A DNA stretch of 64,000 nucleotides. Origin: Thermoplasmata archaeon. GTDB taxonomy: Archaea > Thermoplasmatota > Thermoplasmata > Methanomassiliicoccales > Methanomethylophilaceae. This document shows positions 33,674 to 54,463 of this stretch, piece after piece (position 1 is the stretch's first letter; each line of letters starts with the position of its first letter). The notes below the pieces were generated by a model. The model did not search any database. It saw only the letters and a list, made by a program, of their open reading frames with translations, and was not told the DNA's origin. Location: NCBI GenBank assembly GCA_015063285.1, contig SUST01000004.1, positions 62,001-126,000 on the forward strand, in the 5' to 3' direction. The translations under genes were made by a program, and so were the position numbers.

Positions 33674-35968
33674 TCACGGTTGTGAGTTCAATATCGCTTT
33701 CACGATATTGTTTGCTTCGTCTACGGTATAGTTGGGATCATCGATCCTTAGGCATATGTCGACGTAGCATCCGTCCTTCATTCCTACGTAGTAGATCATC
33801 CATGCCATAAACGCACCGTCTCTGTGACGGTCAGACAGATATCCGTATGCTTCGTCAAAGCCTGCAATATCCATGACGTAACATTTCGTATCAGTGCCTT
33901 CGTATCCTGCCACCTTCTCTTCAAACGTCGATTTCTGAATTGCGAAGTTAGTGTATGCGTCTTTCTTTGAGCTGAAGTTGATATGACGGTCACCCGATCC
34001 GCTGTCTGCCGCCTTAATGCTGGCGAACTCCTCGTCAGCCCCAAGCAGCATTGTGTAAGGTGCGCCCGCATATTTGTCAAGCATAGAGGTGTTGACAGAA
34101 TTCGCCCAGGCTTTTGCATCCACATCAGAGATGGGAGGATAGGCTGAATAGATCAGTTTCTCGATGTCATCCAGCGTCAAGTTCGGCCTTTTGACAATCT
34201 GGAGGTCGACAAGGCACTCATCGATGTATCCGACGTATTTCATGCTTCCAAGTACATATTGGGCATCGGGGTTGGAATTGACATAATAACCGAATCCTTC
34301 AGTGAGAGCATTGGAGAATGGAATTTCTTGGCAGATTCCTGTGGTTCTTGCCTCTGTACCGATTTTGGCCTCATATGTGGCTTTCAACTCGTTAAACTTG
34401 GCTATAGGATCCTTTTCCAGAGAGTATTTGATGAAGTATGTCTCACCATCAGATACAACTTTAGCCACCTGGGAGTTGTTATCCTCTGACAACTTGTACG
34501 GTGTGTAGGAATAATCAATCATCGGATCGGGGTTGGAATTGAGATCATCCTTCATCAGATCCCAGAATCTTTCAGCCAGTCCGATGACATCGATGTCCGA
34601 CTCTATATCGTCATCTCCGGACCCGCCTTTCGCATCCATGTAGTTCTGGTAGGTACAGATTGTCGTCATGTCCTGAACTACGTTGAAGTCTTGGTCCGGA
34701 ACAGTGCTGTTCAGATAGTTCAGATACTTGTCCACCATTGTTTGGAAGTAGTTATGTGCTTCACTCATGGAGACGATATCTGGGTAGAACATTGCTGCAA
34801 CATACATTACCCTACACGGTGTGGGTATTGACAGATTCAGATAGAACATGTTCTCGAATTCGCTGGATTTCTTCAAAATGTCTATTCTGCTGTCTTCCCA
34901 CAGTTTGATCGGGTCCACGTTGATACAGTCGCATGTACGACAATTCATGATGTAGTCGATCTTATCGTTGTAGATCGTTATTGCCTCCACATCGTTCAAT
35001 GGATTGGATCCATTTCCAGGTAGATTGGCCACATCGATTCCTCCTGCCTGAAGTCCCATCTTGGTATATTGGGAATCATGCTGGGAGATATATTTCCACA
35101 TGCACAGTGCGATGAATTTGGTGCGTTCATCATCGCCGAGTTTCTCAAGTTTGTCATTCAAGTCTACTATGGCTTTACGACTGTCGTTGGCATAATTCAG
35201 TGCTTTCTTGGAGTAATCTGGGCCTAAGAGGAATCCCAGAAGCATGGTGGCATCAATTGAGTGCACAGGGTCCGTACATCTGATGTAGATGACAGGTATA
35301 CCTGTGGTTTCGATGTCATCCTTGTAATCAGACAAAGCTGCATCGTTGTAGGCCAGAATTGCACCGATACCCTCTCCTTTCTTATAAAGTTCTGAATCAA
35401 GGTCCTTTATCGCTTCCCATTCGACCTGAGTTATCATCCTGGGGGATGTTCCCAGGCATCTGGTGAAACCGTTGTTGTCAGCCTTGTAGAATGTCACTCC
35501 GTACGAGTCTCTGTTGGCTATGTATCCGATGACTTTCTCATCACCATCGAACATGAATGTGAGCTGGAGCATATCGGGGTTGATAGTTATGACATTCTCC
35601 AGAGGATAGTTGACCTCGACGATGTTCGTTTTTCCGACATCATAGACATATTGGTCTATGAAACGCACCTTTGTTTTTTCACCGTTGATGAGCTTCTTTA
35701 CAATTTCCGCATCCGTTGCGGTTATGGCTCCATCCCCGTCTGCGTCTGCAAATGGGTGCTCGGATACCTTCGTCCCGATCAGTTGGTTGATGAGATCCAC
35801 ATCTTTCTGGTCTATGGTGTAATCCTCGTTGGCGTTACCATAGACCGGAAGGTTGGTCATTTTAAGATTCTCGTAATTGCTGCTGCCAGATCCCAGGAAA
35901 AGGATTGCACCGCCTGCAGCTATCGCTACGATTGCCACTACAGAGATTATGACTATGTTCTTCTGCAC
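33674..35968 (-). CDS. Dockerin-bearing substrate-binding protein, copy 1
   Basis: 764 residues. N-terminal membrane anchor (5-26), then a dockerin-like pair of calcium loops (about 43-96; the second is 'DADGDGAITATDAEIV'), then a BtuF/FepB-type periplasmic binding fold (about 100-435). The C-terminal 280 residues hold two related repeats of about 120 residues, each ending 'YVGYIDECLVDL' or 'YVGMKDGCYVDI'. The Cys cluster 'NCRTCDC' (about 342-348) may bind metal or form disulfides. GTG start with an 'aaggtga' ribosome site. Second gene after its paralogue, nine bases away. Likely captures a metal chelate for the FecCD transporter. Confidence 0.8.
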   Translation of the reverse strand: MQKNIVIISVVAIVAIAAGGAILFLGSGSSNYENLKMTNLPVYGNANEDYTIDQKDVDLINQLIGTKVSEHPFADADGDGAITATDAEIVKKLINGEKTKVRFIDQYVYDVGKTNIVEVNYPLENVITINPDMLQLTFMFDGDEKVIGYIANRDSYGVTFYKADNNGFTRCLGTSPRMITQVEWEAIKDLDSELYKKGEGIGAILAYNDAALSDYKDDIETTGIPVIYIRCTDPVHSIDATMLLGFLLGPDYSKKALNYANDSRKAIVDLNDKLEKLGDDERTKFIALCMWKYISQHDSQYTKMGLQAGGIDVANLPGNGSNPLNDVEAITIYNDKIDYIMNCRTCDCINVDPIKLWEDSRIDILKKSSEFENMFYLNLSIPTPCRVMYVAAMFYPDIVSMSEAHNYFQTMVDKYLNYLNSTVPDQDFNVVQDMTTICTYQNYMDAKGGSGDDDIESDIDVIGLAERFWDLMKDDLNSNPDPMIDYSYTPYKLSEDNNSQVAKVVSDGETYFIKYSLEKDPIAKFNELKATYEAKIGTEARTTGICQEIPFSNALTEGFGYYVNSNPDAQYVLGSMKYVGYIDECLVDLQIVKRPNLTLDDIEKLIYSAYPPISDVDAKAWANSVNTSMLDKYAGAPYTMLLGADEEFASIKAADSGSGDRHINFSSKKDAYTNFAIQKSTFEEKVAGYEGTDTKCYVMDIAGFDEAYGYLSDRHRDGAFMAWMIYYVGMKDGCYVDICLRIDDPNYTVDEANNIVKAILNSQP

Positions 35969-35977
35969 TCAATCACC

Positions 35978-38248
35978 TTAACTCACTGAAGATATTGCTT
36001 TAGCAATGGCGTTCACTATTTCGGTGGTGTTGGTATCATCGAATGCGGTGCTGTCGCTTCTCAGGTAGACTGTTGCGAAGCATCCGTCCTGATATCCGAC
36101 GAATTTGAGCATCCAGAAGCCACCTTGTCTGACGGCTTGAGCATAGAATCCGTATCCATCTTCCAGGTTATTCTTCTCAACAGCCATTGCGATTCCGCCC
36201 ATGTAGTCTTGACCGATCTTATCGATGTATTCTTGTTTGGCGGCCATATAGCCGATGAGGGCATCGGATCTGTTGTCAAAGGTGATGTAATAGTCTTTTC
36301 CATCGTCATTCTTGCTGCATTGGATTTTAGCGAATTCGGCTGTGCTGTCCTCTGTTATCGAGTAAGGCGAGAACTTCATGTTGTTGAGGAGGCTGAGATC
36401 GAATTTCTTGGCAATCTCCAAAGCAGACTTTTCGCCGTCAGTTCCCCACAGGGCATCAACTATGTTCTCAAGATCATCATCGGTCAGAAGCGGTTTCTTA
36501 CCGAGATGGATTTCAATCAGACATTCCTTGATGTATCCGACATAGAACATGGAACCGATACTGTCCTCGTTCTCTGTGTTGACATAATAGCCGATTCCAT
36601 CAGTAAGTCCGGTCGGCAGATCGATTTCGATGTATGTGCCTCCCATGGAGGACTGTTTACCGATCTTATCCTCATATTCCGCTTTCTTTTTCTGGAATTC
36701 CGGTACAGGGTTCTTGTACAGTTTTACATCCAAGTAGTATTTGCCGGATGTGGGCAGGGCCTGTGCATGCTGGTCGTCACCGCTAGTAGTATACGGTACG
36801 CCCTGATAATCGGAAAGGTCCATCTCATTGAGGAAGTGTTTTACGACATTCAGAGAATTGATGTCAGAGATGACCTTCTCTCCTGGATCGGGATCCTTGG
36901 AATCCTCGTAATCCTTGTAGGTGATGATAGTGAACATATCTTCTTTGATGTCAAAATCTCCATCACTAACTGTTTTGTCCAGATATGACATGTATCTGTC
37001 AACGGTATTCTGGAGATAGCTGTCCGCATCTGCTCTTGAGACTATATCTGGATAGAAAATCGCAGCTGCATACATGACTCTGCACGGAACGGGCATGGAC
37101 ATGTTGATCCACACCATGTCTTTGAAGTGGGTGCTCATCTCCAGGAATCTCATATCAGTCAATTCCCATAAGTCGACAGGGTTTACCCACGCGCAATCCT
37201 GTGTTGAACAGTTGAGCATGCAATCGATCTTGTCATTGTACTTTGTGATAGCTTCAACATCCTGCAGCTTCTGTGAGGATGTGCCTTCCAATCCGCTCTC
37301 TTCGATACCTCCTGCCTGGATACCCATGTTTGTGTACTGTGACTGGTTCTCGGCAACATAGATCTTCATGGTAAGCGAAATGAAGTGTTTTCTTTCGCTA
37401 TCCGAGAGTTTGGATACTTTCTTCTGGACATTTGCTATAGTTGTACGGCAGTCATCGGAGAATGCCACGGCCTTCTTAGCATAATCGGGGCCCAGCAGGA
37501 ATCCCAGAAGCTCTGCAGCCTCAATCGAGTAAACAGGGTCTGTGCATCTCAGGTAGATTATCGGTATTCCTGCAGCTTCGATATCATCCTTGTACTCACC
37601 GAGGGCGGCATCGCTCATCACAATTATTGCGCCTATCTTGCTCCCTTTTTCTTGCAGTTCGACATCGAGGTTCTTTATCCCTTCCCAGTCGGCAGCTGCA
37701 ATGAATCTGGCCGTGGATCCGACCTGTTTGCTGACACCGTTGTGGGTCGCTTTATAGAATTCATTGGGGTAGTTGTCGATGTTGGCGACAAAACCTGCGA
37801 CCTGGTCATCTGCGTCGATGAGCATGGTCATCAAAAGCATGTCTGCATTTTGGGTTACAATATCCCTCAGGGGATAGTCCACCGTTACGTAATGGAAATT
37901 GGATTTGATCAGGTCGTACTGGTCTACAAAGGTGACTTCGGTTTTCTCCCCCTTGATCAGTTTCTCCACTATAGAGATATCTTCAGAATCAAGGATTCCA
38001 TCTCTGTTGGCATCTGCGAAGGGATGTACCGAGATCGGAGTTTTTTCTGTGATCATCGAATTGATCAGTTCTATATCTTGATCGTCAACGACATCGTCGT
38101 CGTTGGCATTCCCGAAAACGGGAAGGCTTCCTTTGACGATATCGCCTCCGCCGCCTGAATTATTGCTGTTCAGGACAAAAATGGCTGCGCCAACGATCAC
38201 TATTACCGCGACTAACGCGATTCCAATTGTTGTGACATTGGATTTCAT
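35978..38248 (-). CDS. Dockerin-bearing substrate-binding protein, copy 2
   Basis: 756 residues, paralogous along its whole length to the protein at 33674-35968. N-terminal anchor ('IGIALVAVIVIVGAAIFVL'), dockerin-like module with loops 'NANDDDVVDDQDIELI' and 'DANRDGILDSEDISIV', a BtuF/FepB-like domain and two C-terminal repeats ending 'YVGYIKECLIEI' and 'YVGYQDGCFATV'. The Cys motif here is 'NCSTQDCAW', one Cys fewer than its sister, which hints at a different ligand. Divergent from the permease gene at 38364. The stop is TAA. Confidence 0.8.
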   Translation of the reverse strand: MKSNVTTIGIALVAVIVIVGAAIFVLNSNNSGGGGDIVKGSLPVFGNANDDDVVDDQDIELINSMITEKTPISVHPFADANRDGILDSEDISIVEKLIKGEKTEVTFVDQYDLIKSNFHYVTVDYPLRDIVTQNADMLLMTMLIDADDQVAGFVANIDNYPNEFYKATHNGVSKQVGSTARFIAAADWEGIKNLDVELQEKGSKIGAIIVMSDAALGEYKDDIEAAGIPIIYLRCTDPVYSIEAAELLGFLLGPDYAKKAVAFSDDCRTTIANVQKKVSKLSDSERKHFISLTMKIYVAENQSQYTNMGIQAGGIEESGLEGTSSQKLQDVEAITKYNDKIDCMLNCSTQDCAWVNPVDLWELTDMRFLEMSTHFKDMVWINMSMPVPCRVMYAAAIFYPDIVSRADADSYLQNTVDRYMSYLDKTVSDGDFDIKEDMFTIITYKDYEDSKDPDPGEKVISDINSLNVVKHFLNEMDLSDYQGVPYTTSGDDQHAQALPTSGKYYLDVKLYKNPVPEFQKKKAEYEDKIGKQSSMGGTYIEIDLPTGLTDGIGYYVNTENEDSIGSMFYVGYIKECLIEIHLGKKPLLTDDDLENIVDALWGTDGEKSALEIAKKFDLSLLNNMKFSPYSITEDSTAEFAKIQCSKNDDGKDYYITFDNRSDALIGYMAAKQEYIDKIGQDYMGGIAMAVEKNNLEDGYGFYAQAVRQGGFWMLKFVGYQDGCFATVYLRSDSTAFDDTNTTEIVNAIAKAISSVS

Positions 38249-38363: not shown

Positions 38364-39446
38364 ATGGTCGAAGATATCAACGAAGCCAGGAAGGAAGAAT
38401 ATCGCTCTTCCATTTCAAGAAAAATCACGTTCTTGGTGGTATGTTTTGCTATACTGTTAGTAACGACTATTGTGTCATGTTCTGTCGGGACAGGTTATGA
38501 ATTCGGAAAAACAGCGCAAGTAATTTGGGACCATATCACAGGCGTTACGTACCCCGTAAGGAGTCCAGACTGGTGGGCGGATTACTATATCTTCAACAAT
38601 GTCATGCCCGGTGTAATAATGGCCCTCGTGGCCGGAGCGGGATTGGCCTTGGCCGGTACCGTCATGCAGAGTATGATGGAGAATCCTTTGGCCGATGCAT
38701 ACACGACCGGTATCTCTTCGGGAGCTTGTTTGGGTGCAGTCGTTGCAATCATTATGGGCTATTCATACTCCACCATAGTTGCTGGTGCAGGAATAGTGAT
38801 AAACGCTTTCATAGGGTCGCTGATTCCCGCCGTTATAATCATTCTGATGATCAGATATGTGGGCAATTCTCCCTCAACGATTATTTTGATAGGAACGGCG
38901 TTGACGTTCTTCTTCAATTCGATGGTCACTTTGATTATGATGACGTCGAGTGCAGAGAGTCTTCAGGATGCATACATATGGCAAGTGGGCAGCGTTACTA
39001 ACGCTTCCTGGTCAGATATGCCTTTGATGATTGTGATGTGTATAGCCTCGGCAGTACTCGTACAGATATCATCGAACAAGCTTAACATAATGGCATTGGG
39101 TGAGAAGAGCGCAAAGAGTCTGGGACTGGACGTTGTTCAGTTCAGGATGCTTTGCATTATTCTGACATCTGTTTTGATCGCATCTATCATCTCGTTCACA
39201 GGAGTCATAGGTTTCATCGGTCTTGTCGCTCCTCATATCACACGTTTCCTGGTGGGAGGGGATAACAGATTCGTCGTTCCAGGATCGATAATAATGGGTT
39301 CGACGATTCTCGTGGTAGCCGATCTGATATCGCGCATGCTGATGACATTCGGCAACATCCCTCTGGGAGTCGTAATGTCTTTCATCGGAGCTCCCGTATT
39401 TCTGTACCTTATCATCAGGCGCAGATCTGAAAGGGAGGTATTCTGA
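38364..39446 (+). CDS. FecCD-family ABC transporter permease 1
   Basis: 360 residues, about ten membrane helices, of the BtuC/FecCD family that moves cobalamin, haem and iron-siderophore. The family's 'MQSMMENPLADAYTTGISSGACLGA' region, 'GEKSAKSLGLDVVQFR' (contact with the ATPase) and 'GFIGLVAPHITRFLVGGDNR' are present. It overlaps the next permease by one base (TGATG). Probably forms a heterodimer with the 39446-40495 product. Confidence 0.92.
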   Translation: MVEDINEARKEEYRSSISRKITFLVVCFAILLVTTIVSCSVGTGYEFGKTAQVIWDHITGVTYPVRSPDWWADYYIFNNVMPGVIMALVAGAGLALAGTVMQSMMENPLADAYTTGISSGACLGAVVAIIMGYSYSTIVAGAGIVINAFIGSLIPAVIIILMIRYVGNSPSTIILIGTALTFFFNSMVTLIMMTSSAESLQDAYIWQVGSVTNASWSDMPLMIVMCIASAVLVQISSNKLNIMALGEKSAKSLGLDVVQFRMLCIILTSVLIASIISFTGVIGFIGLVAPHITRFLVGGDNRFVVPGSIIMGSTILVVADLISRMLMTFGNIPLGVVMSFIGAPVFLYLIIRRRSEREVF

Positions 39447-40495
39447 TGGGAAAGGAGGACTACAAGCGTGCAGTCCAAAAGAAATGGCTTTTCATTATCC
39501 TGTGCGCGGTGGCTACGTTGGTGGCCTTGGTGTTCTCACTCTCAATAGGTCTTTACGACATCAGTTTCGCAGATTGCTATAGGGTGCTGATAGAGCATTT
39601 AACGGGGAACATCACCAATCCCTATGAGGACGATATCGTCATCAATACCAGGCTCCCGATTTCGGTATTTGCGGTCATTGTAGGCGCTGTGCTTGCCTTG
39701 GGCGGAGCTGTGATGCAGTCTATGCTCAGGAATCCTCTTGCCGACCCTTATACGATGGGAGTATCGTCCGGAGCTTTGCTGGGCGCATCTCTTGCCATCA
39801 TCCTTGGAGAATCAATTATGCCGTTCTTCAGCGATAAATGGGTGACCATTGTTATGGCATTCCTATTCTCGCTGATACCGGTCACAGTCATTTTGATGGT
39901 TTCGACAAAACGTAAGGTTACTGCGACCAAAGTGATACTTATCGGAATAGCGATGATGTACATCTTTTCAGCCATCGTCCAGCTCATAATGATTACCTCT
40001 TCAGAAGAGACTCTGGCCGAGATCTATTCCTGGAGGGTAGGTACCCTAACTCTGACGGAATGGGATACAATCCCCATCCCTCTCGCAATCAGTCTCGTTT
40101 GCGGGATCATAATCATGTATCATTACAGACGCATCAACGTCATGATGGCTGGAGCAAATTCGGCACACTCTATGGGTGTGGATCCTAACAGGACTCTGCT
40201 GGTCGAGACAACACTGGTTTCGCTGATGACAGCAGCAGTCGTCAGTTTCACAGGTACGATCGGATTCGTAGGACTTGTGGGACCTCACATCGCTAGGCTT
40301 TTCGTGGGATCCGAATCAAAACATCTTCTTCCCGCTTCCGCAGTTTTCGGAGGATTGTTCCTTCTGTTGGCCAATTGCATCGCCAGGGTTTCAGGAGAAT
40401 ACGGTCTGCCCGTGGGAGTGGTCAGTGCGGTCATAGGTTGTCCGCTTTTCATATTCATACTGGTCAAGATGCGCAGGAAGAGCGCGTGGAATTGA
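39446..40495 (+). CDS. FecCD-family ABC transporter permease 2
   Basis: 349 residues, same fold as its neighbour: 'MQSMLRNPLADPYTMGVSSGALLGA' region, 'GANSAHSMGVDPNRT' coupling helix and 'GFVGLVGPHIARLFVGSESK'. About ten membrane helices. The next gene, the ATPase, starts nine bases after its stop. Confidence 0.92.
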   Translation: MGKEDYKRAVQKKWLFIILCAVATLVALVFSLSIGLYDISFADCYRVLIEHLTGNITNPYEDDIVINTRLPISVFAVIVGAVLALGGAVMQSMLRNPLADPYTMGVSSGALLGASLAIILGESIMPFFSDKWVTIVMAFLFSLIPVTVILMVSTKRKVTATKVILIGIAMMYIFSAIVQLIMITSSEETLAEIYSWRVGTLTLTEWDTIPIPLAISLVCGIIIMYHYRRINVMMAGANSAHSMGVDPNRTLLVETTLVSLMTAAVVSFTGTIGFVGLVGPHIARLFVGSESKHLLPASAVFGGLFLLLANCIARVSGEYGLPVGVVSAVIGCPLFIFILVKMRRKSAWN

Positions 40496-40504
40496 GGTGT
40501 TAGA

Positions 40505-41329
40505 ATGAGGTTAATTATCGACGGAATTGAATTCGGATACTCCAGTGTCCCTGTCCTCAAGGATATCACATTGGATGCTAACGGGCCCCAGCTATTATCC
40601 ATAATCGGGCCCAACGGAGTCGGTAAATCTACTTTGATACACTGCATCAACAGGATTCTTTCTCCAAACAAAGGAACCGTTATGATTGACGGGGACAATG
40701 TAAATGATGTTTCATTGAAGGACCTGGCTAAAAAAGTAGGTTATGTTCCTTATTCCGCTAATGATACTTTCCCATTGTCTGTCGTCGATACGGTCTTAAT
40801 GGGTCGTCACCCTCACGCTACGTACAAGTCTCTTGATAAGGATCTAGACATAGTTTATGATACGCTCAGACTTCTGGATATTGAAGATCTGGCCATGAGG
40901 AATTTCAATGAACTGTCGGCAGGACAGCATCAGAAGGTCATGCTTGCCAGAGGTCTTGTTCAGGAGCCTGAGATCCTGCTTCTGGACGAACCCACTTCCA
41001 ATCTCGATATAAAGCATCAGATGGAGGTAACTCGTATACTGAGAGGTCTTTCTCAGGAGAAGGACATCCTAGTGATCATGATAAGTCACGACCTGAACAT
41101 AGCTGCGAAGTATTCAGACACGATGATCATGCTCCACGGCGGTTCGATTTATGCCATCGGAACCCCCAGCCAGGTTATCACCAAGGAGAACATCAAAGCG
41201 GTCTACGATGTCGATTCAGAAGTGATCGAGAGCCACGGCAGGCCTCATTTGATCATGCTCGATGATGATTTCGATAATACGGAGCATAGTTTGCCCTCGG
41301 ACACTTATGCCGTCAATGAGATGAGGTAA
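40505..41329 (+). CDS. ABC transporter ATPase of the FecE/BtuD type
   Basis: 274 residues. Walker A 'GPNGVGKSTLIH', Q-loop 'GYVPYS', signature 'LSAGQHQKVMLARGL', Walker B 'ILLLDEPTSNLD' and H-loop 'VIMISHDLN' are intact. Energises the two FecCD permeases. The family's 'VLMGRHPH' after the Q-loop is typical for iron-siderophore and haem/cobalamin ATPases. The stop is TAA. Confidence 0.94.
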   Translation: MRLIIDGIEFGYSSVPVLKDITLDANGPQLLSIIGPNGVGKSTLIHCINRILSPNKGTVMIDGDNVNDVSLKDLAKKVGYVPYSANDTFPLSVVDTVLMGRHPHATYKSLDKDLDIVYDTLRLLDIEDLAMRNFNELSAGQHQKVMLARGLVQEPEILLLDEPTSNLDIKHQMEVTRILRGLSQEKDILVIMISHDLNIAAKYSDTMIMLHGGSIYAIGTPSQVITKENIKAVYDVDSEVIESHGRPHLIMLDDDFDNTEHSLPSDTYAVNEMR

Positions 41330-42849: not shown

Positions 42850-45800
42850 TTACTGATTCCTATCTGTAACTTCCTCTATTCTCTCTTCAACATCGAGGTA
42901 AAGGTCCTTCAATTTCTGTCTATAATCGTCTTTTGCATCCCACAATCCGCGTTCTATGGCCTCTTCCAAACGGTTGAGGATGTTCATCATCGCATACGGG
43001 TTGACATCCATCATCCATTCCTGCGTGCTCTTGTCGAAGAGATACTTATCCGCAATGCCCTCGTACATCCAGTCTTCGCCTATGTCCGATGTGGCATCCC
43101 AAGCCATGGTGAATTCCGTGAGGTTCGCCATCTCGCCGGCGCCGCGGTATCCGTGCTCCTTTAGTCCGTCGATGAATTTGGGATTCAGGATCTTGCTCCT
43201 GAACACGTAACGCAGTTCCTGCTGAGTGTCCCTGAGCTTGGACCTCTTGGGGTCCGAATCGTCGCCCATGAACGACATGAAATCCTTGTTCTTGCCATAG
43301 GCCCTCACGAATGCGTTCATGCCTCCGAGATATTCGTAGACATCGTCGCAGTCCAGAAGGTCAATCTCCCTGTCAGGCATGTTCTTGACAGTGATGGACA
43401 CGCTGCTGAAGCGTCTCATGAACTCATCTTTGAGCTTTTCCCCGTAGTGGCCTTGGGAATAACCGTTGCTGCACCAATCAAGATACACGTTCGCAAGGTC
43501 CTGGACGCTATCCCAAGTGCTGTTCTCAATCGCCATGTTAACTCCGGTACCGTATCCTCCGGGAGGGGCACCGAATATCCTTACCGCGTTGCGCCTGCGA
43601 GCCTCATCTGGAGACAGTCCGGATAATATGCCCTCGACCACATCCTTCCTCAGATTGGCGGCCAAGGCATTGTCCTCATCCTTCTCGTCCAGACCGGCCA
43701 CCAGATTCACCGCCCTGTCGATGAGATCGATGAGGTTCGGGAAGGTGTCCCTGAACAATCCCGTAATGCTCACGGATACGTCCAGTCTAGGTCTTCCAAG
43801 CTCCGAAAGGGGAACTACTTCCAAGTCCACCACCTGTCCGCCTGTGCGTGCCCATATGGGCTTTACTCCCAGTAGCTACAGGATATAGGCGACGTCATCC
43901 CCTCCGGTTTTCATTATGTCCGTCGCCCAGATGACCATACCGATCTCTCTGGGGTATTCCCCTTTCTGATCCACATAGCGCTGGACCATCTGGTCCGCCA
44001 TACGTTTACCTATCTCCCAAGCGGTGCGGGTAGGGACTATGTCCGGATCCAGCGAGAAGAAATTCCTTCCCATCGGAAGGATACCTGCGCTTCCGCGTGT
44101 AGGTGCACCGGAAGGTCCGGGCACGATATGCTCCCCTCTGAGGCCGTCGGCCATATGCGAGATCTCATCAGTCATCCTCTTGATGTTGGGTACAAGCGTT
44201 CCGCAGGCGTATTCCAAGCTCCTTTTCAGTTCATCGGTCGCTTTCCCGATGTGCGATAACGTGCGCTCGAGGTCGTATCCGTCCTCCCGCATCCATTCTA
44301 GGAGGTCCATGAGCTCCCCGTCGATCCTATCGACGGCAACGGAGTTGAACTCTCCCGTAGAACATACGCCAGCAGGATCCTCCAGGGCCTTCTACATATC
44401 GACTCCCTGATTCTCTGCGAAGGCATCCCTGAGGGATCTGATGTCTCCGTTGTCTAGGCGCATCAATGAATAGAGTGCCTCGTCGAAATGGTGCCCTTCG
44501 GGTACCTTTCCGAGGATGTGGAGGTCTGATCTGATCAGTGCATCCTTCACCTCCGATATGTATTCGTGAAGCGGGATAATGTATTCCTCGAAACCTTCTG
44601 GACCGGGGTCGTTCTCATCTGTTATCCCGATGTCCTTCAGAAGATTGTTCCTCTTCGCTGTCTCGTACACATTGGCGACTGCCTGCGCCTTCCTCTGGGC
44701 GTTCGGGGTGCCCTTCAGCCTCAGCAGGTCCTGCAGTTGGACGTTTACCTCGTCTAGCTCGGGATAGGAATCCGCACGGGCCATCGTAGGAGGCATATGG
44801 CCGATCAGTACGGATTCGATCCTGCGCTTGCACTGTATTCCCTCTCCGGGGTCGTCTATAATGTAGGGGTAGATGTTAGGGATGCAGTCCAGAACAACGT
44901 CCGGATCGCATTTTGCAGATAATCCGACGTTCTTCCCGGGGAGCCATTCGATGGTCCCGTGTGTCCCCATATGGAAGATTATGTCGGTCCTGAACGTCTC
45001 CTTCAGCCAACGGTAGTATGCAAGATACTGGTGCTGTGCGAACAGGATTGGGTCGTGGATGTTCTGCTCCATCTTGTCGGCCCATCCTCTGAGCGGCTGG
45101 TATCCCACGAACACGTTGCCTTTGATGATACCTGGGACGATGATGTCATGTCTGTCGACGCATATCGATCCCGGGGGCTCTCCCCAGGCATCGATCATCT
45201 CCTTCTGATCCCATTCAGGGATGCGTATGAACTGACCTTTGTATTCCTTGTCCGGTATCAGGTCCACGGCCTTCTCTCTGAGAGCTTGTGATGACAGGTT
45301 GTCTAGATCGTTCGTGACTCCGTTCAGTATCTCATCGATCAGAGCCCTTCCGTCCGCAGGTACGTTATCGACGGTGTATCCCTCGGCCTCCAAGGTCTTC
45401 AGGATGTTAGCGACACTCTCCGGGGTGTCGAGTCCCGCGGCCCCGCCTATGTTCCCGGAATCGGGGCGGTTCTGCCACATGAGGATGGCGACCCTCCTTT
45501 CGGATACGGGTTTGGAATGGAGGGCGCCCCAGTTCTTGGCCAATTTCACAAGATGACCGATCCTCTCCGGTATCGGATGGTAGCGGGCGGTTCCGTCAGT
45601 TTTGGACTTGTAGGCTACCGGTACGCTGACGATGCACCCTTCCAGCTCAGGATAGATGACGTTCATCTGCATGTCCTTTTTGGATAGACCGATCTTATCG
45701 TCCTCGAAGTCGTGATATGCCCCTTGGACGGAGATTCCGAACACAAGGGGAACGTTCAGCTCGTTGCGGTAGAAGTTCCATTCGTCGAGACATCTGTCGT

Positions 45801-46593
45801 GCCCATGTCCGTCTATGGCCAATCTTGAAACAGATATTATGCATGATACCAACGGTTTTCCGTTCTCGGTCATGTAGTTGCGCAGAACGGAATCCACCTC
45901 ATTCGTCAGATCCTTGTTGAAACTGGAGCAGAATATGGGGATGACGTTCATGCCCTGTCTCTCGATCTCGTCAGTTATGGCGTCGATATGCTCCGTGGTG
46001 CCGTATATCCAATTGTTAGTGGGGAATACGAGGCCTAACGTCATCTTCTTTGGATCCAGAGTCTTGAGATAATCCTCTTTGGAGATTTCCGTATCCATGC
46101 CGCGATGGTAGATCCCATGAGGTCTGTGGACGATCGGAGGATCAGGGAATCTATCGCAGAATCCAAGCCTGTACATGGCCCACCATATGATCCCTCTGTC
46201 ATTTTCGGGACATCTGTCCTTCACATAGGAATACAGTTCACGATATTCCTCGTCCGTTCCTTTGAATAGAGGTCTGGCCAGAAGATTCATCTCCGGATTT
46301 CCGGAGAATACTGCAGGGAACCCCTTCACATTCTTCAGAACATCCTCGTAGCGGTCCCATTTCTTGAAACGATAGAGGTCCCCCATCCCTCTGACGTAGA
46401 TGAAATCGGCCTGTTGTGTGCGCTGAATGAGGTCATGGTAGACCAGAACATCCTCGTCGGCATCATCGGCGTAGATCCCGTAGAATTCCACATCCAAACC
46501 CAGGTCCTCTCCGAGCTTCTCGGCGGTGCTCTGGAGCTGATCGGGCTCGTTCTCCAGAATGGAGATGAATACCATGCGGAATACCCTGGGCAT
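42850..46593 (-). CDS. cobN: CobN/ChlH-type metal chelatase subunit with two in-frame amber (probable pyrrolysine) codons
   Basis: 1247 residues if TAG is read as an amino acid. TAG codons are at 44392-44394 (codon 734) and 43876-43878 (codon 906); the final stop is TAA. The frame does not shift, and family motifs lie on every segment: 'MGTHGTIEWLPGKNVG' and 'IGHMPPTMARADSYPEL' before the first TAG, 'GRNFFSLDPDIVPTRTAWEIG' and 'DIMKTGGDDVAYIL' between, 'LLGVKPIWARTGGQV' directly after the second, and 'GYRGAGEMANLTEFTMAWD' later. Total length matches CobN. No CobS/CobT or ChlI/ChlD partner is near. The homologous HmuS of Bacteroidetes acts on haem beside an HmuTUV transporter, like the arrangement here; cobalt insertion into corrinoids is the alternative. 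Confidence 0.9.
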
Positions 46594-50747: not shown

Positions 50748-52421
50748 TTGGACGATTTGTTGATCGCGACAGCAGTACTGACCTTGCTCGCCGGAGTGGG
50801 CGTCTTCCTCACCGCATGCATAATGCTCAGTTCCAATCTAGAGTCCCTTAGCAGCGGCAAACTCAAGAAGATGTTCGCGAAGGCATCTAAGAGCAAACTT
50901 TACGGTGTCGGTATCGGTACAGTAGGTACCGCGGCGATCCAGAGTTCCGGAGCGATGACCGTCATGGTCATCGGATTCGTCAATGCGGGAATCATGACAT
51001 TACCGCTGGCGGCCACCATCATATACGGTGCCAACATCGGTACCACCATAACCGCTCAGATAGCCGCAATTGGAATGTTCAATGACGACACATTATCCCT
51101 TTCTGTCATCTTCGCCGCTCTGGCAGGTATCGGGGCGTTCGTCATGGCATTCTCCAAAAAAGAGAAAACCAAGGTTTGGGGCGGTGTTATAGCAGGTTTC
51201 GGTCTTCTCTTCGTCGGTTTGATGATGATGGCCACATCCATGGAAGACTTCGCCAAACTCCCTGAGGTCGTAGAATTCCTTTCCAGCATCCACAACATCT
51301 TCCTCGTTCTTCTGATCGGTATCCTTTTGACAGCCTTGGTCCAGAGTTCATCGGTCGTGACCACTCTGGCGATCACAATGGTCGTTAGCGGATTGATTGA
51401 TCTCGAACAGGGTATTTATCTGACCCTGGGTTCAAACATCGGTTCATGTATAGTTGCTATCCTGGCAGGATTCTCGGGCGGAAGGAATGCCAAGCGTACC
51501 GCGGTTATCCATCTATTGTTCAACGTGTTCGGAGTGACACTATTCGTAGTAGCCGACATGTTCTTAGGAATATTCGGTATAGAATATGCAGAGATATTCC
51601 AGACCATATTCCCCGATGTGCCTTCAACGCAGCTCGCGATGTTCCATACCGTGTTCAACGTCATCACTGTGATCATAATGCTCCCGCTGACCGGATTGCT
51701 CATCAAACTGGTCATGAAGATCGTTCCCGAGAAGGAAGGGGAGAAGGAAGAGGAGTTCAAACCCAGGCTCTACTTCATCAACGAGTATATGCTCAGAACG
51801 CCCCCCATGGCCGTTCAGCAGGTAATGAAGGAGGTAGTGAACATGTCGCATATTGCCATGGACAACTACCGTACGGCATGCCACATGATACGTACCATGG
51901 ACTTCGAGGAAATGGACAAATTCTGCAATAACGAATAGGAGCTGAATTATCTGAACAAGGAGATCGCCAGATTCCTGGTCAAGCTGTCGGAAAACCAGCT
52001 TTCAGAGAGGGATCAGATCTATGTCTCCACAGTCTACCATACAATTTCTGATTTGGAGCGTATCGGGGATTATTCCAAGAATATAATGGAATATGCTCAG
52101 AAGCTCAAGGAACAAGGAAACACCTTCTCCGAGGTAGCCTTGAAGGAGACCATGGTCATGGAATCGCTGATCGAGCAGCTCTATGAGAAGATCGAGATCG
52201 CCTACACGGAGACCAACGAGGCCGCATTGGAGGCAGCATATGATATCGAAGAGAACATCGACATCATCACTGAATCCATGGCGGAGAACCATGTAAAGAG
52301 GCTCAATGAGGGCGTCTGCACATTGGATGTCGGTTCCGAATTCCTCGCAATGACGTCGGATTCCGAGAGGGTAGCCGACCATCTTATCAACATGGGAAAG
52401 GTCATCAGGCTGTATTCCTGA
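50748..52421 (+). CDS. Na+/phosphate cotransporter with PhoU-like tail and one in-frame amber (probable pyrrolysine) codon
   Basis: 557 residues if the TAG at 51936-51938 (codon 397) is read through. Residues about 1-320 are the Na/Pi-IIb type carrier with the two 'QSS' repeats 'AAIQSSGAMTVMVIG' and 'ALVQSSSVVTTLAIT'. The tail is PhoU-like and helical. The TAG falls inside that tail, between 'MDFEEMDKFCNNE' and 'ELNYLNKEIARFLVKLS', and the frame goes on to a TGA at 52421 with the PhoU-type 'SDLERIGDYSKNI' and 'SDSERVADHLINMG'. TTG at 50748 has 'ggagg' seven bases upstream, so it is preferred to TTG 50742. Confidence 0.88.
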
Positions 52422-52791: not shown

Positions 52792-53622
52792 TCACGCCAG
52801 GAAGCTGAAGTAGATGGCGCTTAGGATGAATGCGAGCAGTCCGAAGAGCATACCGATCTTCGCTTTCTTCTCTGCCGCATGAGGGTCCTTGAATACGATG
52901 TATGCACAGTAGAAGAATGCTACATCTGCCAGGATCACAGAGTAGTAGAGATAGTTCTCCGGATGGAGATAGATCGGATACCAGCTGAGGATAGGGCCCG
53001 CAATGTAGAAGATCGAAGCGACGATGGATGCATTCTTCACACCGATCGCCATGGGAAGCGTCCTTCTGCCTATATCCGAATCCATATCCTCGATATCCTT
53101 CGAGATCTCCCTTCCTACTGTCACGAGTGCCGCCATACCGCCGACGGCGATGTTGGCCGTCCAGTCGCCCACAAGAGCTCCTGCCAGAAGGAAGACCATA
53201 CCGGTCATCAGGGCTATCGTTATGTTTCCGATGAATCCGCGCTTCTTGGTCAGCAGTTCATATGAGAACATCAGGATGACTGCGATGATGACTATCGCGA
53301 TGCAGGAAACATCCATTGTGATAAGGGACAGCAGCGCCGAAAGCACCAGCATGAAGATCCCTATGTTTCTGGCCTGTATCGCGGTCAGTTCCCCTGAAGG
53401 TACAGGCCTGTCAGGATGTGCCGTTCTGTCGATCTCGACATCGATGTAATCGTTCAGGGAATTGCCTCCGGCGATGAACGCGAATACCACGAAGAAACCG
53501 ACTATGAGGTTCTGCCAATAGTCGATCATAGCGGTACCGGTAGCCATGAATGCAGCGATCAGAATGGCAAAGGAGCCGATAAGGACATTGCCCATCCTGA
53601 ACAGCCGGAGGTACTTGTTCAT
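52792..53622 (-). CDS. Digeranylgeranylglyceryl phosphate synthase (UbiA family)
   Basis: 276 residues, about eight membrane helices. It adds the second geranylgeranyl chain to the archaeal glycerol phosphate lipid. Asp motifs: 'GGNSLNDYIDVEIDRTAHPDRP' region and 'DIEDMDSDIGRRTLP', in the DGGGPS form with 'RPVPSG'. The frame is open to 53769, but the ATG at 53622 with 'ggag' upstream gives the family-like start 'MNKYLRLFRMGNVLIG'. Divergent from a polyprenol-kinase-like gene. Confidence 0.88.
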   Translation of the reverse strand: MNKYLRLFRMGNVLIGSFAILIAAFMATGTAMIDYWQNLIVGFFVVFAFIAGGNSLNDYIDVEIDRTAHPDRPVPSGELTAIQARNIGIFMLVLSALLSLITMDVSCIAIVIIAVILMFSYELLTKKRGFIGNITIALMTGMVFLLAGALVGDWTANIAVGGMAALVTVGREISKDIEDMDSDIGRRTLPMAIGVKNASIVASIFYIAGPILSWYPIYLHPENYLYYSVILADVAFFYCAYIVFKDPHAAEKKAKIGMLFGLLAFILSAIYFSFLA

Positions 53623-53734
53623 GCATCTCCATCGCAGAAGTGATATAATTCCATTTGTCGGGAACAGGTCGCTCATGTCGAACATATCTTTATCTCTAAC
53701 TTGAGTATATCTAAGAGTATCAGGTGTGTGGCAC

Positions 53735-54463
53735 ATGGGGATGGAAGACATATTCCAGATGACGACCAACGACGTTATTGCCCTGGTGCTGGTCTACGCC
53801 CTGATCATCGTGGTTCTCGCCGTCGCACTCATAACACAGAAGAAGACCGGCGACAAGTATGACATCCGCAAGATAATCCACATCGGCATTGGAAACTTCG
53901 TATTCATATGGTGGATGTTCGAGAACGCTTGGGTTATGGAAGCTTTTTTCGCGATACCGTTCGCCATAATTCTGTTCCTGGCGATGCTGAAGGATAACGT
54001 TATCGCGAAATCGACTTTAGGGGACATCTCAAAGAACAAGGGGCATAAGCAGGGCCTCTTCCTGTATGTGGTCAGCATCGTTATCTTGGTCGCCCTCTGT
54101 TTCAACGAGCACTGGACTGCCGCTTCCATAGGTATTGTCGCAATGACCTGGGGAGACGGTTTCGGAAGCATCATCGGTAAGAGGTTCGGTAAGCATCACA
54201 TAATCAAAGGAAAATCCGTCGAAGGTACTTTGGGTGTGTTCGCAGCCACCGTGATTGTGTCTCTCATCCTGGTGGTGTTCCTGGGATCGGTCACCCTTCC
54301 AGATCCAACTGGGATCAAACTCACTGCCAGTATACCTATTTGGGCGTGCTGTGTGATAGCCGGTGCGACAGTCTCTGTCACGGAGATGGTAACGCCCGGA
54401 TGGATTGACAATATAGTGAACTGTATGGCCGTCACAGGCGTCATGATTCTCCTGGGGCTCTGA
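53735..54463 (+). CDS. Dolichol/phytol kinase-like CTP-transferase family protein
   Basis: 242 residues, about seven membrane helices. The family's conserved blocks are 'KIIHIGIGNFVF', 'STLGDISKNKGHKQG', 'AMTWGDGFGSIIGKRFGK' and 'KGKSVEGTLGVF', as in Sec59/VTE5-type prenol kinases. Likely phosphorylates a prenyl alcohol with CTP. The ATG at 53735 follows 'aggtg'. It leads an operon with a nucleotide-kinase-like and a PAP2-like gene, which fits prenyl phosphate metabolism. Confidence 0.82.
   Translation: MGMEDIFQMTTNDVIALVLVYALIIVVLAVALITQKKTGDKYDIRKIIHIGIGNFVFIWWMFENAWVMEAFFAIPFAIILFLAMLKDNVIAKSTLGDISKNKGHKQGLFLYVVSIVILVALCFNEHWTAASIGIVAMTWGDGFGSIIGKRFGKHHIIKGKSVEGTLGVFAATVIVSLILVVFLGSVTLPDPTGIKLTASIPIWACCVIAGATVSVTEMVTPGWIDNIVNCMAVTGVMILLGL

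Follow-up and report, generated by a model that had tools for sequence, protein, structure and literature searches.

An archaeal genetic code in which all TAG codons, genome-wide, stand for pyrrolysine (Pyl) was reportedly described by Kivenson et al. in Science in 2025, and a 2009 paper (listed as reference 79 in PMC4153887) is said, going by its title, to concern the neutral gain of Pyl by a different protein, one with no part in methylamine metabolism. For 'Ca. Methanomethylophilus alvus', Borrel et al. (2014, PMC4153887) predicted 16 Pyl proteins that do not belong to methylamine metabolism; TAG makes up 1.6% of its stops, in-frame TAGs were argued to become stable where TAG is efficiently decoded, and for half of its TAG genes two related genomes contain homologues free of TAG (PMC4153887). 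Within the chelatase family, a CobN homologue with a TAG was predicted in Methanosarcina acetivorans and Pyl was proposed (Chaudhuri and Yeates 2005, PMC1242214); this TAG-containing CobN was called a probable pseudogene in 2007 (Fujita and colleagues, PMC1914089). The family also has archaeal members to which no function has been assigned (PMC12583661).

The 64-kb stretch of DNA analysed here (the window) comes from contig C4 in a draft genome of 1.79 Mb in 33 contigs (96.7% complete). It contains a gene that most likely encodes an intact, selected, full-length CobN/ChlH-class chelatase-like protein with two probable Pyl residues (Table 1).

Table 1. Positions of the chelatase gene, its TAG codons and further features of the window
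Feature	Coordinates	Strand	Remarks
FecCD-type ABC importer, two permeases and one ATPase	38364..41329	+	metal-chelate / tetrapyrrole / corrinoid class
Flavodoxin-domain protein, N-terminal hydrophobic segment	42220..42840	-	9 bases downstream of the chelatase gene
CobN/Mg-chelatase H-subunit-like gene	42850..46593	-	1247 codons, two in-frame TAG, terminal TAA
TAG codon 906, probable Pyl	43876..43878	-	aligns with Trp in 37/44 genes
TAG codon 734, probable Pyl	44392..44394	-	CAA/CAG (Gln) in nearest relatives
Na/Pi cotransporter with PhoU domain	50748..52421	+	TAG codon 397 inside PhoU

The chelatase gene, its TAG codons and its neighbours

Translation of the minus-strand frame, from its ATG start to its TAA end, reproduced the coordinates of both TAGs, their place in one continuous frame, the terminal stop, the length of the product and the two Pyl positions as they stood in a preliminary description of this DNA; the 1247 codons hold no other stop and no frameshift. 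With TAG read as an amino acid, PF02514 gave one match of 1142 bits (residues 122-1223) that spans both TAGs, as expected from the earlier claim of a CobN-type protein running across them, and the score against TIGR02257 (CobN) was 876.7, compared with a cut-off of 822. By a full-length profile match above the curated cut-off, the protein is thus a member of the CobN/Mg-chelatase family. Its best match among solved chelatases was CobN (620 and 600 bits), with homology over most of its length, followed by ChlH (457 bits) and HmuS (347 bits), and on this ranking an identity as HmuS heme dechelatase was rejected. The motif LLGVKPIW, which the preliminary description had pointed out directly after the second TAG, has its aligned counterpart in relatives and in the solved CobN sequences. 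Separate downstream ORFs arising from re-initiation were rejected because alignment to relatives resumes directly past each TAG.

The homologue alignment proposed in that description placed Gln at 734 and Trp at 906 in relatives. The column of codon 734 is variable (D, Q, R or E). At codon 906, the Trp is encoded by TGG in the five near relatives printed and is also present in ChlH, with Ala in solved bacterial CobN (7c6o and 9uk9); by a gap-free offset, residue 906 corresponds approximately to HmuS 1029, which lies outside the named HmuS cleft residues (Ser1014, Ser1067, Gln1198, Ser1199 and Trp1202; PMC12583661). Codon 734 would be derived from Gln (CAG or CAA ancestry), CAG to TAG being a single transition, and codon 906 from Trp by the single transition TGG to TAG. 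Because ChlH and 37 of 44 relatives have Trp there, the change at codon 906 may not have been quite neutral. TAG was found at neither column in the other genes of the 44-gene alignment; the TAGs are therefore not shared in the same column across relatives, as would be seen for a functional, conserved Pyl site of the MtmB kind.

Among the matches listed, in-frame TAGs were present in ten chelatase genes from nine genomes of the family, at ten alignment columns, of which one is common to three genes and another to two, a distribution that reads as scatter and not as conservation. PylS was detected in eight of these nine genomes, and the ninth (G061) is 82% complete. In chelatase loci checked one by one, TGA occurred at natural ends only, and the single internal non-TAG stop was a TAA in a genome without detected PylS. 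Three of the loci (L069, L070 and L075) have a TAG at one column common to genes from two genera, which is either old, transferred or convergent. The chelatases of L012 and L032 have C-terminal extensions that contain a TAG, either a stop or Pyl. The idea that TAG favours CobN genes was rejected, as there was no sign of enrichment (approximately 1 TAG per 13,000 codons in the genome sample versus 1 per 14,000 in the family chelatases; both rates are rough estimates, the latter from the matches listed in the family).

The flavodoxin gene is probably co-transcribed with the chelatase gene; no flavodoxin gene was found beside the chelatase of the nearest relative. The FecCD importer adjoins the chelatase in the nearest relative too and is thus a conserved neighbour. 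Flanks common to this locus and that of the sister gene in genome G064 comprise ACT, RsuA, GNAT, lipoprotein-like, FecCD and dockerin-like genes. On the basis of the family and of the importer and flavodoxin neighbours, the protein would likely insert metal into, or extract it from, a tetrapyrrole or corrinoid that the cell imports. An Rfam search of the 64-kb window gave no matches. At 33674-38248 (minus strand), two large proteins of approximately 760 residues are encoded in tandem and have dockerin-like matches towards their N-termini; in G064 they are conserved beside the FecCD importer, and a weak relative of them adjoins a second importer on contig C2. The same contig carries a second chelatase paralogue, TAG-free and with AAA+ genes adjoining. 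Of the genes with Mg_chelatase (AAA+) matches in this genome, two stand a short way upstream of this paralogue, and none is adjacent to the two-TAG chelatase. Given the paralogue, the two-TAG copy may be dispensable.

Pyl machinery and TAG usage in the genome

The organism had been taken for a Pyl-decoding methanogen, and this view was supported by pylB, pylC, pylD, a partial pylS, two mtmB genes with one TAG each, and a nearly vacated TAG. Of the pylTSBCD set, whose presence the preliminary description had proposed to check, pylB, pylC and pylD (names assigned from sequence and gene order) and the 3' part of pylS were recovered at the start of contig C13, where the last 86 codons of pylS come first and pylB, pylC and pylD follow. 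The partial PylS is 96% identical to that of the nearest relative. We did not find pylT and the 5' part of pylS in the assembly, pylS being cut at the contig edge; they would sit in an unassembled gap. The nearest relative has pylT, a tRNA-Pyl with a CTA anticodon, upstream of its pylS. Within the family, PylS was present in 76 of 102 genomes, among them almost every genome from the source genus. A search with TIGR03912, the family of the PylS N-terminal domain, gave no match, which is uninformative because PylS of Methanomassiliicoccales is known to lack that domain. With no pylT and little of pylS assembled, it is the partial pyl cluster, the mtmB genes and the relatives that argue for TAG decoding in the source genome.

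Stop usage was assessed in a sample of approximately 560 kb (31% of the genome), in ORFs of at least 100 codons that were called with a simple codon-usage script, so that counts are approximate. ORFs ended in TGA in 403 cases, in TAA in 56 and in TAG in 11 (2.3%; 11/470), a TAG share lower than the 11.2% (14/125 ORFs) in a family member without detected PylS (P ~9e-5), and TAG made up 2.1% and 2.8% of stops in two other PylS-positive genomes. In-frame continuation into coding sequence was seen for 7 of the 11 TAG-ended ORFs versus 29 of the 459 that ended in TGA or TAA (Fisher P ~2e-6), and two of these seven are the chelatase's own TAGs. TAGs were located inside Pfam domains of NADAR, TnpB, YegS, LicD and Na/Pi cotransporter-PhoU proteins and, in an HD protein, in the part after the HD domain. 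The Na/Pi cotransporter-PhoU protein is likely a further Pyl-containing protein in the window, and its TAG supports general TAG decoding.

Two IS605-type TnpB genes (L048:6063-7217 on contig C11 and L056:175-1329 on contig C20) have a TAG in common, immediately behind a DRD motif close to the C-terminus, and one copy has an extra TAG where the other has Gln. This element could make its protein only in TAG-decoding hosts. In the window, a UbiA-type prenyltransferase gene (52792-53808, minus strand) has a TAG at codon 5 of its longest frame, probably upstream of the real start; a digeranylgeranylglyceryl phosphate synthase is among the proteins predicted to contain Pyl in 'Ca. M. alvus'.

Selection and competing readings of the two TAGs

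With the TAG-free syntenic sister gene of G064 (79% identical) as the reference, dN/dS was 0.111 for residues 1-733, 0.118 for residues 735-905 and 0.047 for residues 907-1247, absolute values that are rough because dS to the nearest relative is approximately 1.5, near saturation. Lineage-specific nonsynonymous/synonymous ratios of the three segments were 0.50, 0.62 and 0.20, versus 0.48, 0.56 and 0.19 in the sister. These ratios indicate strong purifying selection on all three segments, like that on the TAG-free sister, and speak against a pseudogene. That the gene is not broken, as the preliminary description had held, agrees with these values (approximately 0.11, 0.12 and 0.05) and with a frame free of other disruption. 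Relaxed selection, frameshifts and mixed stop types, the marks of a pseudogene, were not seen, and two features of a Pyl protein were: in-frame TAGs flanked by homologous coding sequence, and purifying selection downstream of them. The selection signal could predate the TAGs if these are very recent, and a very recent loss of function could escape this test on its own; a scan of genome contigs for a close strain yielded only one distant relative, at 46% identity.

We assign a probability of about 0.86 to the reading in which the chelatase is intact, both TAGs are read as Pyl via tRNA-Pyl and PylRS, and Pyl is tolerated but not catalytic. The lineage, a genus of Methanomassiliicoccales that carries PylS, has almost abandoned TAG as a stop, and for this reason the chelatase TAGs would be read as Pyl; the ribosome would insert Pyl at 734 and 906, and the full chelatase would be produced. 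The TAGs would have been gained by neutral drift and kept where Pyl is tolerated, and tolerance is most likely since relatives have Gln or Trp at these sites and TAGs fall at ten scattered columns. Both the insertion of Pyl at the two codons and its neutrality are predictions from sequence. A recent pseudogene, in which chelatase function is lost and both TAGs are real stops, is improbable: the TAG-free paralogue beside AAA+ genes on contig C2, the well conserved Trp on which codon 906 falls, and the M. acetivorans case, in which a TAG-containing CobN was judged a probable pseudogene for its additional TAA (PMC1914089), would fit it, but both stops are TAG, with TAA, TGA and frameshifts absent from the frame, constraint past each TAG is as strong as in the TAG-free sister, and TAG is nearly vacated as a stop genome-wide.

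That Pyl at 906, in place of a conserved Trp in the best-conserved part of the protein, alters its chemistry or ties its output to Pyl supply is decidedly improbable; if true, it would be a functional Pyl in a tetrapyrrole chelatase. The genome has one clear aRF1 gene, and since the archaeal factor ordinarily recognises each of the three stops, termination could compete with Pyl insertion at TAG. Partial read-through would then give a 733-residue form and the full-length form, and chelatase output would track Pyl (methylamine) supply, for which the link between corrinoid demand and methylamine use in these organisms could speak. Such a Pyl-dependent switch is very unlikely: a site with a regulatory role should be retained, yet no aligned relative shares either TAG, and the TAGs seen in unrelated genes resemble these. 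Sequencing or assembly error at both codons, conceivable in a 33-contig draft, is the least probable reading; it would need two independent errors, both yielding TAG, and TAG recurs within other coding frames of the genome and in chelatase-family genes of relatives. 

Comparison with known Pyl proteins and chelatases

The preliminary description had implied that a chelatase would be a special, new setting for Pyl. This part was not supported, as TAG occurs in unrelated genes, the sites are not conserved, CobN had its precedent in 2005 (PMC1242214) and 'Ca. M. alvus' its 16 predicted Pyl proteins in 2014 (PMC4153887). The chelatase is most likely a new example of a known phenomenon and not new enzyme chemistry. 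With it, the Pyl proteins outside methylamine metabolism gain a large enzyme that is under selection and probably contains two Pyl residues, and the finding supports an almost complete reassignment of TAG in the lineage. Standard gene callers split the gene into three pieces, so that annotation of chelatases and of other genes in these methanogens is incomplete. The functionality of TAG-containing CobN genes, set aside in 2007, is reopened by the TAG-bearing chelatase genes found among the matches listed in the family.

As in the archaeal code reportedly described in 2025, TAG appears to be reassigned to Pyl genome-wide in an archaeon. Like 'Ca. M. alvus', a methanogen of the same order, the source organism has a pyl cluster, recovered in part, very few TAG stops, and TAGs scattered in unrelated genes (PMC4153887); unlike in 'Ca. 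M. alvus', whose Pyl table contains no CobN (PMC4153887), one such gene here has two TAGs. The chelatase and M. acetivorans CobN belong to the same protein family and both have an in-frame TAG, but M. acetivorans CobN also has an in-frame TAA, whereas the chelatase described here has TAG only and full constraint. Compared with the class I chelatases CobN, ChlH and HmuS (7c6o, 9uk9, 4zhj and 9d26), the protein is homologous and differs by its two probable Pyl residues.
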